From NCBI GenBank assembly GCA_934663645.1, contig CAKUKR010000105.1, forward strand, positions 1 through 5,601: a stretch of 5,601 nucleotides of DNA. The letters are read 5' to 3'. A program made the translations under genes and the position numbers. Each line of letters begins with the position of its first letter. Within the stretch, counting starts at the first letter, position 1. Below, piece after piece: positions 1 through 4,324 of the stretch. A model generated the notes under the pieces. The model searched no databases, was not told the DNA's origin, and was given only the letters and a program-made list of their open reading frames with translations. This stretch comes from an uncultured Muribaculaceae bacterium. Lineage in GTDB: Bacteria; Bacteroidota; Bacteroidia; Bacteroidales; Muribaculaceae.

Positions 1-2282
1 GCAAAGAGGCGTCAAATACATACGTCGAGTTCAAGCGCACTATGGCTACGGACAAGAAGTATGAGTGCAGCAACCTCGGGAAGTCTTTCACCTCGGAGGA
101 ACTCTCTGCGGAAGTGCTCAAGACACTGAAATCATTCGTGACTGATGAGAACGTGAATTGCGCAATCATCACCGTACCCGCAAAATTCTCCGTTAACCAA
201 AAGACAGCGACACTGGAAGCGGCGAAAATGGCAGGTTTCGAGAAGGTCGAGTTGCTGCAAGAACCGATTGCTGCGTCAATGGCATACGGACTCACTGCCG
301 ATGAAAAGGATGGTGTCTGGATGGTGTTCGACTTCGGCGGCGGCACATTTGACGCCGCTTTGGTGAAAGTTGAGGACGGCATCATGCAGGTTTTTGACAC
401 AGAGGGCGACAATTACCTCGGGGGCAAGAACCTGGACTATGCCATAGTGGACGAAATCATAATACCCTATCTGCGAAACAACTATTCTGTGGAAGGCTAT
501 CTGCAAGACCCGGTTAAGAAGGAGGTGTTGCGAGATGCCATGAAGACATACGCAGAGGAGGTGAAAAACCAGCTTTCATTCAAGGAAAAGGAAGACATCA
601 TCTCCAACCTTGGCGACTTTGGCGAAGATGAGGACGGCGAGGAAATCGAACTGGATTTGACAGTGACACAGGCACAGCTGTATGGCGTAATCCGTCCGTA
701 TTTCCAGAAGGCTGTTGATATATGCCGCGAACTCATCTCACGCAACAAGCTCAAGCCGTCGCAAATCAGCAAACTGATACTCGTCGGCGGACCGACACAC
801 AGCCCACTGATACGCCAGATGTTGAAGGAGCAGGTGACACCGAATGTTGACACAAGCATCGACCCGATGACCGCCGTTGCCACAGGTGCTGCATTGTATG
901 CATCGACTATCGACGCGGTTGTGTCTGACAGCGAAATTGAAGTCGGAACTGTCAAACTGAACCTCGGATATGCCTCAACATCAGTCGAAACAACAGAGTT
1001 TGTGTCGGTAAAACTTGAGGGAGGAACTTCGCTGCCGAAGGTTGATGTCGAAATTGTCCGCTCCGAGAAGGGCTGGTCTAGCGGCAAGTGTCCTATCGAT
1101 GCGAGCGGAGATGTTATTGAAGTGCAGCTCAGAGACGGAAGAGCAAACTCATTCAGCGTATTGTGCTACGATGACAAGGGCAACCCGCTCCCCTGCTTCC
1201 CCTCTGAAATCACAATCATTCAGGGCAGTTCTGTCGGAGCTGCGCCGTTGGCATATAATATTGGTATCAGCGTATGGAGCGATGTCCGCAAATGCGGCGT
1301 GTTCCGTATGGCAGAGGGCCTTGAGAAGAACAAGCCGCTTCCGGCGGTCGGTGTAATAAGCGATTTGAAGACGCCAGCCAAACTGCGTCCCGGCGTCAGC
1401 TCTGATGTAATCACTATCCCGGTGTATGGAGTGGACGGCGTTGCCGAAGAAGCGGAAGGAAGACCTACAACCCTGTACGAGCATATCAGCGATGTGGTGA
1501 TAACCGGCGATGAGGTAGAGACTCTGATTCCCGAAGAAAGTCTTGTAAACGTGACACTGAAAGCGGACTCGTCGGAACAAATGAAACTCGAGGTGTTTTT
1601 CCTTGCATCCGGCATCTCCATTGAGAAAGCTCTCGACACAAGCAAGAAGCACAAGACAGAGCAAACGCTCAAGGAGATACAGGCAGGTTTGTCAAACGCT
1701 CAAGTCGGCATCGCTCGGCTTGCCGAAAGCGGCATCGACACAGGCATAATGCGCGAGGAACTGGCTCGTCTGCGCAAAGACGCGCAAAACCCGTCAGAGC
1801 CCAAGGAAGTCCTCAAGCACTTGCGCGACTTGCTCATTGACATTGTTAAGGTGGAAGACGGCACAGAGTGGCAGCGCGTTGAAAAAGAGCTGCGCGAGGA
1901 GTTTGATGACCTCGAAAGAGCGCAGAACGACCTCGGCAATGAGGAGACTGCCCGCAGTGTCTCACAGTTGCGTATGCAGACAGACGAGGCCATACGCGCC
2001 AAAGACCCCAAAATGGGACGTGCCGTAATAGACCAAGTCCGCGGATTGTATGTACACCTGACAATGGTGTATCAGTGTGCTGCGATAATTCAGAATAGTA
2101 ACAGCCGTTTCGGCTCGATACGCTGGAAAGACGCATCGCGTGCACGTCAGTTGGTGAACACTGGCATGGCGGAAATCAACAACGGCCTGAATGTTGACAA
2201 ACTGCACCCGATTGCGGTACAGCTTCTCAAACTGATGCCAGATGACCAAGCTCGCGATAATGCCGGAGGTCTGCTGAAATGA
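1..2282 (+). CDS. Divergent Hsp70-like chaperone ATPase, 5' end outside the window
   Basis: Hsp70 proteins bind and release unfolded client segments in an ATP-driven cycle in the cytoplasm. Numbering from the Met at base 42: an EPIAAS connect-1 motif (E74, the equivalent of DnaK E171), the phosphate-2 motif DFGGGTFD (97-104, bases 330-353), the adenosine motif LILVGGPTHSP (245-255, bases 774-806) and DPMTAVATGAAL (274-285). A beta-rich substrate-binding-like region covers about 402-535, and a helical, charged lid-like region about 540-746. The frame stays open from base 3, and the 13 residues before Met42 continue the fold (an FKR segment like the KRLIG region of DnaK). Met42 is therefore internal, and the phosphate-1 loop, about 75-90 residues, lies upstream. 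Oddities are about 100 residues between the nucleotide-binding and substrate-binding parts, no DVLLLD-type linker, and an acidic stretch at 191-206. It is not housekeeping DnaK. The stop overlaps the next start, so the pair is probably translationally coupled. The family is clear; the role is unknown. Confidence 0.93.
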   Translation, partial: KEASNTYVEFKRTMATDKKYECSNLGKSFTSEELSAEVLKTLKSFVTDENVNCAIITVPAKFSVNQKTATLEAAKMAGFEKVELLQEPIAASMAYGLTADEKDGVWMVFDFGGGTFDAALVKVEDGIMQVFDTEGDNYLGGKNLDYAIVDEIIIPYLRNNYSVEGYLQDPVKKEVLRDAMKTYAEEVKNQLSFKEKEDIISNLGDFGEDEDGEEIELDLTVTQAQLYGVIRPYFQKAVDICRELISRNKLKPSQISKLILVGGPTHSPLIRQMLKEQVTPNVDTSIDPMTAVATGAALYASTIDAVVSDSEIEVGTVKLNLGYASTSVETTEFVSVKLEGGTSLPKVDVEIVRSEKGWSSGKCPIDASGDVIEVQLRDGRANSFSVLCYDDKGNPLPCFPSEITIIQGSSVGAAPLAYNIGISVWSDVRKCGVFRMAEGLEKNKPLPAVGVISDLKTPAKLRPGVSSDVITIPVYGVDGVAEEAEGRPTTLYEHISDVVITGDEVETLIPEESLVNVTLKADSSEQMKLEVFFLASGISIEKALDTSKKHKTEQTLKEIQAGLSNAQVGIARLAESGIDTGIMREELARLRKDAQNPSEPKEVLKHLRDLLIDIVKVEDGTEWQRVEKELREEFDDLERAQNDLGNEETARSVSQLRMQTDEAIRAKDPKMGRAVIDQVRGLYVHLTMVYQCAAIIQNSNSRFGSIRWKDASRARQLVNTGMAEINNGLNVDKLHPIAVQLLKLMPDDQARDNAGGLLK
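2265..2269 (+). promoter_or_regulatory. Shine-Dalgarno-like GGAGG before the kinase-AAA gene
   Basis: GGAGG lies inside the end of the Hsp70 gene, nine bases before the ATG at 2279 and twelve before the in-frame ATG at 2282. The spacing slightly favours 2279. The first ATG shares ATGA with the Hsp70 stop codon, an arrangement typical of translational coupling. The other starts in the window have no comparable motif, so this one stands out. Confidence 0.5.
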
Positions 2283-4048
2283 TGTTCCAAAAAGGCGACA
2301 GCATAGGGAATTACACGGTATCGTTTCCGCATAAGCAAGAAGCCTGTGCGGAAACATACCGTGTAAAAGACCCTGAAGGGCATACACGCTTCCTGAAACT
2401 CATTGATTGCAGCAAGTTGCGCCGTGACAGGATAGATGATGAAGGACAGGTAGTGGAAATCGTAGTTGCCAAGCAGCTTGACCACCATAACCTGCTCAAA
2501 TACCATGATTCAGGCAGACTGACATTGGACGGCAGACTGTTCGCATTCCTCGTGACTGACTATGTCAGCAGCGAATCGCTGTCACAGCGCATTATTCGTG
2601 ACGATGACATATCTGTTTATGAGATTAAGGGCATTGCCAAAGCCGTGCTTTCGGCTTTGGCGTATATGCACTCACGCCCTGCTCCGATAATCCATAACGA
2701 TGTGACAATAAATAGTGTCCTGCTTGATTTGACAGGCAGTGTCAGCGATTTGAAACTCGTGGGATTGGGGTATTCCCAGTTTCTTGGGTCAAGTTTGGCG
2801 AAGCCAGATCTGAAAAACCAGAACCTGTTCTACATTGCTCCAGAACGGTTTTCAGGGGTTAGCTCTGTGCAATCTGACTTGTACTCCGTCGGGGTGATGA
2901 TGTATCACCTGCTTTACGGCAGGTTGCCTTGGTATGTAGATGCTTCGCGAGTTGACAGCCAAGAAATTGTAGACGTCATACTTGCGCAGCATGACAAGGA
3001 ATTGGATTTGCCACGGCTGAACAAGTTCGAGCTTGACGACCAGTTGCTCAATGTGATAGCCAAGTCGCTCAGCTACGATGCGGAAGACCGCTTCCAGTCA
3101 GATGATGATTTCATCAGGGCCCTTGACGGCGAAACTGAAATACCGAGACAATCCACAAAGACCAAAATCTTGTCGGAAGCTGGGCAGCGCAAACAAGCAA
3201 CGCCTAAGTTTGAAAAGGCAGAAGGTGAAGGTTTTGCGGCCATTGCAGGTATGGAGGAACTGAAACGTCAGCTTCAAGAGGAAGTAATCGAGCCGCTCCA
3301 CAATCCAGAGGAATATCGCCGCTATGGCGTGACTATACCCAACGGTATGCTTCTGTACGGGCCTCCTGGATGCGGCAAGACATTCTTTGCCAAACATTTT
3401 GCAGAGGAGGTGGGCTTCAATTTCCTGTGCATCACCCCGGCAACGCTGAAAAGCAGATATGTCAACGCCACTCAGGAGAACATTGCGCAAATGTTCAAGG
3501 AGGCGGAGGCAAAAGCACCGACTGTCATATTCATAGACGAGATGAACGAGCTCGTTCCCGACCGTCAGAGCGATGTTCATGAGATGTCGCGAAGTGCGGT
3601 CAATGAGATGCTCGCTCAAATGGATCGGACCGGCGAAAAAGGGGTGTTCGTAATCGGAGCAACGAACTATCCGGACATGATAGACCCGGCGATATTGCGT
3701 GCCGGCCGTTTGGATAAGAAGTACTATGTCGGCGCACCTGACAAGGATGCAAGAGCTGCCCTGTTCCGGCTGTATCTTAGCAAGCGTCCGTATGATTTCG
3801 GACTGGATTATGACAAATTGGCGGAACTGACCGAATACTACGTGTCGGCGGACATACAACTGATTGTCAATGAGGCATCGCGCAATGCGCTGCAACTTCG
3901 CAGCCGTATCACAATGCAGTTGCTTACTGATGCAATAAGCAACACAAAGCCCTCGTTGAGCCGCGAAATGCTTAGCAAGTATGAAACGATTAAGGCAAGG
4001 ATGGAAGGAGCGGACGAGAAACCGACCCGTCGCCGGGTAGGCTTCTGA
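2279..4048 (+). CDS. Pseudokinase-AAA+ ATPase fusion protein
   Basis: The 589-residue protein has two domains. Residues 1-285 have a Ser/Thr kinase fold: the VAIK-type Lys is K40, the probable helix-C Glu E60, APE 187-189, the helix-F Asp D200 in SDLYSVG, and R271. The glycine loop is absent. HRD reads HND (139-141), the catalytic Asn is S146, and DFG reads GLG (162-164), so phosphotransfer is doubtful. A polar linker at 286-316 follows. Residues 317-575 form a classical AAA+ domain: IAGMEELK (322-329), Walker A GPPGCGKT (361-368), pore-loop aromatic Y394, Walker B FIDE (D420, E421), sensor-1 N463, arginine-finger motif RAGR (474-477) and sensor-2 helix SADIQLIVNEA (523-533). The end is basic (RRRVGF). 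The AAA+ half should form an ATP-driven ring that remodels proteins. No membrane segment or protease domain is visible. Translational coupling to the Hsp70 suggests joint work on clients, with the pseudokinase as a docking or sensing module (inference). The start at 2279 fits the ATGA overlap; 2282 is an equal alternative. Confidence 0.95.
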   Translation: MMFQKGDSIGNYTVSFPHKQEACAETYRVKDPEGHTRFLKLIDCSKLRRDRIDDEGQVVEIVVAKQLDHHNLLKYHDSGRLTLDGRLFAFLVTDYVSSESLSQRIIRDDDISVYEIKGIAKAVLSALAYMHSRPAPIIHNDVTINSVLLDLTGSVSDLKLVGLGYSQFLGSSLAKPDLKNQNLFYIAPERFSGVSSVQSDLYSVGVMMYHLLYGRLPWYVDASRVDSQEIVDVILAQHDKELDLPRLNKFELDDQLLNVIAKSLSYDAEDRFQSDDDFIRALDGETEIPRQSTKTKILSEAGQRKQATPKFEKAEGEGFAAIAGMEELKRQLQEEVIEPLHNPEEYRRYGVTIPNGMLLYGPPGCGKTFFAKHFAEEVGFNFLCITPATLKSRYVNATQENIAQMFKEAEAKAPTVIFIDEMNELVPDRQSDVHEMSRSAVNEMLAQMDRTGEKGVFVIGATNYPDMIDPAILRAGRLDKKYYVGAPDKDARAALFRLYLSKRPYDFGLDYDKLAELTEYYVSADIQLIVNEASRNALQLRSRITMQLLTDAISNTKPSLSREMLSKYETIKARMEGADEKPTRRRVGF

Positions 4049-4080
4049 CCATATTGCATTAGCCACCCATGAGATGAAGT

Positions 4081-4108
4081 TGGAGCCGTCCTGGACAGGG
4101 CGGCTCCG
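4081..4108 (+). terminator. Strong hairpin after the Hsp70/AAA operon, possible terminator
   Basis: Arms GGAGCCG (4082-4088) and CGGCTCC (4101-4107) pair perfectly. The stem continues inward through a T-G wobble and three further pairs to a four-base loop (4093-4096), about 11 pairs in all. It begins 33 bases after the AAA gene stop. No clean T tract follows: the next bases are mixed, then AATTAATT, with a TTTT run only at 4129-4132. Intrinsic termination is therefore plausible but not textbook. The hairpin could instead protect the 3' end of the mRNA. Confidence 0.5.
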
Positions 4109-4298
4109 CTCGAATTAATTACACACGATTTTCTCAGGTTATGGGAGAGGAGAGATATGTGGCAGTTCCTGCTAACCACATTGCAAAATTAGGCAATGCT
4201 GGCGATTTCAGCATAGCAGCATCGGACATCCATATTGTCATATCGGACAATGCGCGTGCGCAGAACAGACAAAGCCGCTGTATATCGGGGATTTTGAC
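4109..4298. other. Non-coding spacer with small inverted repeats
   Basis: I see no convincing gene here. The two short open frames that cross it, one per strand, run out of phase into rsmG and resemble no family I know. The spacer holds several short inverted repeats: TGTGG/CCACA with an inner GCAG/CTGC (4158-4180), ATGCTG/CAGCAT with a seven-base loop (4196-4214), ATTGTC/GACAAT with a six-base spacer (4234-4251) and TGCGC/GCGCA with a two-base spacer (4251-4262). ATCGGACA is also repeated directly at 4221-4228 and 4242-4249. These could be operator sites, a structured leader or a small RNA, or chance. Confidence 0.4.
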
Positions 4299-4306
4299 TA
4301 ATTTTG
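4299..4306 (+). promoter_or_regulatory. Bacteroidota-type -7 box upstream of rsmG
   Basis: TAATTTTG matches the TAnnTTTG consensus of the Bacteroidota primary sigma factor. Transcription would start near 4312, leaving a leader of about a dozen bases before the rsmG ATG at 4325. No clear TTG -33 element sits at the expected distance; only CTG at 4278-4280 comes near. Position and orientation support a promoter for rsmG and the MBL gene, separate from the Hsp70/AAA operon. Confidence 0.5.
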
Positions 4307-4324
4307 CAGTAGAAATAGACAGGT

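Follow-up and report, generated by a model that had tools for sequence, protein, structure and literature searches.

A kinase-like fold joined to a p97/Vps4-like AAA+ domain, encoded in an Hsp70 operon of Bacteroidota

The window, by which we mean the whole 5,601-nucleotide stretch of DNA analysed, carries an Hsp70-family gene, cut by the window edge, and overlapping its stop codon a gene for a protein with a kinase-like domain and an AAA+ domain. Their features are the following.

3..2282, + strand: Hsp70-family gene truncated at its 5′ end by the window edge, with 759 aa visible; Pfam HSP70 at E 4.1e-57 over residues 8-309
2279..2282, + strand: four-base ATGA overlap of the Hsp70 stop codon and the kinase-AAA+ start codon
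2279..4048, + strand: gene for the likely pseudokinase-AAA+ protein, 589 aa
2279..3133, + strand: kinase-fold domain, residues 1-285
2396..2398, + strand: VAIK-type Lys40, present in every one of the 137 alignment rows
2693..2716, + strand: catalytic loop reading HNDVTINS, residues 139-146, degenerate in that Asn stands for the HRD Arg, Thr for Lys and Ser for Asn
2762..2770, + strand: GLG in place of DFG, residues 162-164
3134..3226, + strand: linker, residues 286-316, poorly conserved, with low pLDDT from residue 295
3227..4003, + strand: classical AAA+ domain and lid, residues 317-575; Pfam AAA at E 2.8e-37, AAA_lid_3
3359..3382, + strand: Walker A, GPPGCGKT, residues 361-368, in 137 of 137 rows
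3452..3469, + strand: pore loop 1, SRYVNA, residues 392-397
3524..3541, + strand: Walker B, VIFIDE, residues 416-421
3656..3667, + strand: sensor 1, GATN, residues 460-463
3698..3715, + strand: arginine-finger motif, RAGRLD, residues 474-479
4049..4324, no strand: site of the relatives' TerB-like gene, none being found in the window (tblastn with 17 TerB-like proteins, best E 0.22, elsewhere)

A sequence-only reading of this DNA had proposed that one protein joins a kinase fold (residues 1-285) to a classical AAA+ ATPase, with the kinase fold standing where such proteins carry their N-domain. Pfam domains and structure prediction bear out both points; the predicted structure has a kinase fold over residues 1-291, with low confidence in the AAA+ half of the model. 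An artefactual fusion of two genes during assembly is ruled out by the relatives, which carry one frame rather than two genes. A database search with the window protein gave 6045 matches at E 0.001 or better, and each of the best 120 has kinase and AAA Pfam domains in a single chain of 573-594 aa; 18 of the 20 genome loci described below likewise have a single full frame. The N-terminal domains of classical AAA+ proteins usually choose clients, and it may be that client choice or switching falls here to the kinase-like module. Rfam models gave nothing over the window at gathering scores.

Conservation was read from an alignment of 137 rows, consisting of the best 120 of the 6045 database matches, the window, 15 genome loci and the plasmid locus L021, and leaving out L008, L010, L016, L019 and L020. 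The kinase motifs (VAIK, HRD, DFG) and the AAA+ motifs are given their customary names. As the sequence-only reading had it, the motor motifs of the AAA+ domain are intact: Walker A is identical in all 137 rows, GATN is present in 136 and the Walker B catalytic Glu in 136, and with the arginine fingers and an aromatic pore loop these make up the full p97/Vps4-type set. We infer that the AAA+ part would form a hexamer and thread substrate.

The kinase site presents a different state. In an active kinase a lysine at the position of Lys40 pairs with a glutamate at the position of Glu60, and both residues are invariant in the alignment (137/137), as are Glu189, Asp200 and Arg271. The HRD Asp position, however, holds E in 108 rows, G in 22 and D in only 7; the catalytic-loop Lys position holds T in 132, A in 5 and K in none; and the DFG Asp position holds D in 109 and G in 28. 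The catalytic-loop Lys is also missing from 45 of 45 rows of a second row set, which overlaps the 137. The window itself keeps Lys40 and Asp141 and has lost the catalytic-loop Lys, the loop Asn and the DFG Asp. Throughout its clade the DFG Asp is lost, and Asp141 is replaced by Gly in 22 clade mates and kept in 4. On a tree of 39 rows chosen from the 137, loss of the DFG Asp requires two changes, one in the window's clade and one in P0048; it is also gone in loci L068 (GFE) and L070 (SFG), and L069 has HRDINPDN together with DFG. The domain thus combines a kinase fold with loss of at least one of the VAIK Lys, HRD Asp and DFG Asp (here DFG Asp to Gly), the same three motifs that are used in the consulted part of a pseudokinase review (PMC12599244). 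A kinase domain without key catalytic residues is likely to be a pseudokinase, and this is how we read it from its sequence; the motif counts disfavour an active Ser/Thr kinase.

The same residues bear on two other accounts of the domain. It could be a kinase that is active, if atypical, and regulates the machine by phosphorylating Hsp70 or the AAA+ part of its own chain, an idea that the invariance of Lys40 and Glu60 favours, as do the single branch formed by L055-L060, where HND, the loop Asn and DMG are kept in 6 of 6, the L069 motifs, and the acquisition of other chemistry by some pseudokinases, such as SelO (PMC12599244, consulted part). We nevertheless consider it improbable, given the absence of the catalytic-loop Lys from both row sets, the loss of the DFG Asp in the window's clade, L068 and L070, and the missing loop Asn of the window. 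Alternatively, the domain could be a decaying relic attached to an AAA+ part that alone matters. More than one loss of the DFG Asp would fit such decay, as would the faster evolution of the kinase domain, which has 36-65% identity to rows outside the clade against 52-84% for the AAA+ domain. Against clade mates P0001 and P0002, however, the kinase domain is 92 and 89% identical (AAA+ domain, 95 and 94%), and because of this within-clade identity we regard it as kept rather than rotting. Together with the five invariant residues and the lack of any homologue without a kinase domain among the best 120 of the 6045 matches, this leaves the relic account very improbable.

A pattern-based scan of genome contigs yielded 20 loci, all from Bacteroidota (Prevotella, Odoribacter, Muribaculaceae, Alistipes, Parabacteroides, Bacteroides, Flavobacterium and others). 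The kinase-AAA+ frame is complete in 18 of them, being broken within the AAA+ domain in L019 and reduced to a contig-end fragment in L020; L008 duplicates L007, and the contig of L005 begins within the Hsp70 gene. L007 and L008 come from MAGs labelled Bacteroides and Duncaniella and share their ORF coordinates over 12 kb, reflecting transfer or a binning error. Clustering of ORFs across the 20 loci gave the operon order c2 - c3 - Hsp70 - kinase-AAA+ - TerB-like. In all 19 testable loci Hsp70 lies upstream of the kinase-AAA+ gene, separated from it by no more than two genes, and c2 and c3, the two genes ahead of Hsp70, are present in 18 of 18. The Hsp70 proteins retain GIDLGTTNS (18 of the 18 rows that reach it), DFGGGTFD (19/20) and the adenosine motif (20/20); the window copy has DFGGGTFD and the GG-T-SP motif. 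A plasmid of Haliscomenobacter hydrossis carries the five-gene operon under the annotations CFI-box, 'septum formation initiator', Hsp70, AAA and TerB. Location in an Hsp70 operon gives the kinase-AAA+ protein a concrete partner. The sequence-only reading had recognized the kinase fold in the N-domain place and had missed both this operon and the degeneracy of the kinase site.

Occurrence is patchy. Among 149 genomes sampled from the family to which the L004 genome (titled Muribaculaceae) belongs, at least 10 match at E 1e-100, and among 395 from its phylum at least 6 match at E 1e-80; both samples include the centre genome and together they give 15 genomes, the counts being lower bounds because few candidates were scored per genome. 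Such a distribution is more in keeping with an accessory role than with core proteostasis. Hsp70 adjoins the kinase-AAA+ gene in 9 of the 15 sampled genomes (L004, L052-L054 and L066-L070). All five operon genes are found in L052, L053 and L066-L068; L069 has four with no TerB in view, L070 has four before its contig ends, and L054 is likewise cut by a contig end. The other six (L055-L060) have no Hsp70 gene within the stretch fetched, which speaks against a dedicated Hsp70 machine. In all six, a gene for a conserved protein of 127-130 aa follows the kinase-AAA+ gene (alignment A9). Since the deepest rows, L068-L070, are Hsp70-linked, the tree favours the Hsp70-linked operon as the older state, with the placement unsure given long branches and a midpoint root. 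A kinase-AAA+ fusion on enterobacterial plasmids was rejected: the 25% match on pPOL9A has AAA and biotinyl-lipoyl domains and no kinase at E 0.1. A phage origin was also rejected, as the pattern scan of viral contigs gave five pattern matches and no relative; 195 phage records match, none covering more than 80% of the query.

We then consider the remaining operon proteins. In all 18 c3 members hydropathy shows a single strong hydrophobic segment, located after a stretch that matches coiled coils. Its C-terminus scores 26.5 bits against Pfam GrpE (cut-off 25.8) at the L015 gene coordinates (G006), and the G007 and G134 operons give full-length but sub-threshold GrpE alignments at places matched by coordinates. 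GrpE was listed for 2 of 10 trimmed c3 C-termini, both under the cut-off; comparison of c3 with six GrpE sequences gave nothing, and the likeness fails in most c3 members. Of 21 c2 sequences, 17 have hydrophobic segments, either C-terminal or internal; the structure model of c2 (mean pLDDT 87.7) is all-helical and repeat-like. Foldseek with c2 returned no match at E 0.001 or better, giving helical-repeat likeness at best and barely covering the N-terminus. The NPYR-LG start of c2 shows a faint profile likeness to the J domain (P 0.003 and 0.0023, probability 10-13%), the cross-pairs c2-GrpE and c3-J giving P 0.18-0.45. We rejected c2 as a J-domain protein, there being no HPD in a 14-row alignment and no Pfam J-domain (DnaJ) match at the c2 genes of 11 genomes. 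Neither a GrpE nor a J chain was listed when the PDB was searched by sequence with the C-terminal and N-terminal profiles, and overall the profile comparisons gave nothing convincing for either a J domain or GrpE. Upstream of the L018 operon, a small protein (L018:3937-4224) matches a J-domain profile at E 0.0031 and 12.4 bits, with none by Pfam.

Variation around this core was also recorded. The c2 proteins of L012, L013, L016, L019 and L021 lack the membrane segments and have instead a C-terminal CYIATMxYG segment, and the L021 protein with this segment is the one annotated CFI-box. A gene inserted in L015 (11838-12494) encodes a similar CYVATMVYG segment, and the gene inserted in L017 clusters with it. 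The insert between the Hsp70 and AAA+ genes of L002 (L002:9440-9994) encodes a secreted-looking protein of near-identical TTGHTDMFGNTTTTHRNRYGNTTGTS repeats. A TerB-like gene is present in 17 of 19 loci, once as a 70-aa fragment; it was not found in L019 or L020, and the L016 contig, which ends too early, is outside the 19. Pfam TerB scores exceed the 24.4-bit cut-off in L021 (26.4) and in the G370 (29.2) and G083 (26.8) operons, the other members seen scoring 13.8-21.5 bits, under the cut-off. In the window, rsmG comes after the AAA+ gene, where most relatives have the TerB-like gene. A TerY-P triad was rejected, the scanned operon proteins of the window, L003 and L021 having no VWA or PP2C domain.

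The patchy spread noted above also suits a role in conflict: a chaperone-like core would sense or disassemble an invader complex and free effectors encoded by variable inserted genes. Chaperone-centred conflict systems are described in the consulted part of PMC7159879. Extra genes occupy three slots. Eight of the 19 loci, counting both of the near-copies L007 and L008, carry them after Hsp70 and ahead of AAA+; L003 and L004 have them between c2 and c3, and L015 and L017 before TerB. The DUF6602 inserts L003:5741-6508 and L004:5761-6528 match the PADLOC model PD_DExK (E 3.7e-28 and 2.7e-27) and NucC (E 2.7e-14 and 3.7e-16); these NucC-like inserts and the patchy spread are the strongest points for a conflict role. 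The Haliscomenobacter plasmid copy adjoins brxL and pglZ, and among 100 flanking and inserted proteins at most four match the candidate family PDC-S05 and two PDC-S23 (E 1e-20). The kinase-AAA+ protein itself matched 39 PADLOC models, the best being IetA (E 1.2e-35) and mad6 (E 5.1e-30), but these matches span single domains and fall far below the NCBIfam equivalog cut-offs. We rejected identity with the anti-phage ATPase IetA (109 bits against 510, AAA+ part only) and with the defence kinase MAD6 (77 bits against 460). At E 1e-5 PADLOC matched neither the remaining four core proteins of L003 nor the four other inserts tested. Of the 100 Pfam families for the flanking and inserted proteins, the 25 listed are mostly metabolic, housekeeping or TPR-repeat families (SecA, DNA pol III alpha, PFK, tRNA synthetase and glycosidases, for example), and 3 proteins are phage integrases. 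A defence island finds no support in the families listed, 25 of 60 in the candidate-family scan and 25 of 100 in the Pfam scan. The pattern scan of viral contigs, which gave no relative, also counts against a conflict role. On balance we regard a conflict or anti-phage system as unlikely.

The closest known systems each share part of this arrangement. With p97/Cdc48 and Vps4 the protein has in common the AAA+ fold, Walker A and B, sensor 1, the arginine-finger motif and the aromatic pore loop, but Cdc48 has two AAA+ domains against one here, and the p97-type N-domain is replaced by a kinase fold. Membership of the CDC48 family proper was rejected (193 bits against an NCBIfam cut-off of 803; a single AAA+ domain, not a tandem). 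The DnaK-ClpB bichaperone pairs an Hsp70 with an AAA+ motor, and here an Hsp70 and an AAA+ protein are neighbours in one operon; the ClpB motor, however, is a double-ring Hsp100 with a middle domain, whereas this one has a single classical AAA+ domain with a likely pseudokinase. The bacterial Ser/Thr pseudokinase families ActPs1-3, GLW, CP1, DYD and DLHK share the degraded-motif kinase fold, and CP1 is linked to a predicted ATPase (PMC12599244, consulted part). Compared with them, the present family keeps the Lys and the alpha-C Glu and has a p97-like AAA+ partner; the main text of that review, as far as consulted, has no match for AAA, Bacteroid- or Hsp70. The GTPase-centred conflict systems of PMC7159879 resemble the operon in that Hsp70, GrpE and a protein fused to DnaJ or TPR share one neighbourhood; in the consulted part they differ in being centred on a GTPase, mostly in actinobacteria and firmicutes, with no pseudokinase-AAA+ protein. 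Searches of open-licence papers gave no title or abstract that dealt with the kinase-AAA+ fusion or its operon. The individual parts are of known kinds, and their combination appears new.

Based on the adjoining Hsp70 gene, found in many relatives too, the protein is likely the motor of an unfolding or remodelling machine, and we give about an even chance to the fuller proposal that it is the motor by which a dedicated Hsp70 chaperone machine unfolds its clients, with its kinase part a likely pseudokinase. The AAA+ part would assemble as a hexamer and, driven by ATP, pull client chains through its pore by means of Tyr394 of SRYVNA. In the place of the p97 N-domain, the pseudokinase could serve as a non-catalytic docking platform or a nucleotide-sensing switch, docking Hsp70, clients or adaptors and, in members that retain the DFG Asp, perhaps still binding ATP by way of Lys40; clients would most plausibly reach it through the Hsp70 encoded next to it. 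Where the operon is complete, a transmembrane protein whose cytoplasmic end is GrpE-like may tie Hsp70 cycling to the inner membrane, where the operon's membrane proteins would position the machine. The helical-repeat protein, which has membrane segments in most members, could serve as a scaffold, and the TerB-like protein could be another adaptor. More tentatively, and with a chance that we place clearly lower, the whole would be a Bacteroidota bichaperone in which a transmembrane GrpE-like receptor reports the state of the envelope to a dedicated Hsp70, which passes clients on to a hexameric unfoldase; in this unfoldase a non-phosphorylating pseudokinase that reads ATP or partner proteins would have taken the place of the client-choosing N-domain.

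If this is correct, the operon would represent a second bacterial route, besides ClpB, for coupling Hsp70 to an AAA+ motor, and a case of a protein kinase fold serving as an unfoldase adaptor. The family offers a natural series, HND/DMG, HNE/DFG and HNG/GLG, in which the kinase site fades and the motor stays intact, so that a docking role is directly testable; and hand-over from Hsp70 to a single classical AAA+ motor would be testable in a five-protein system.
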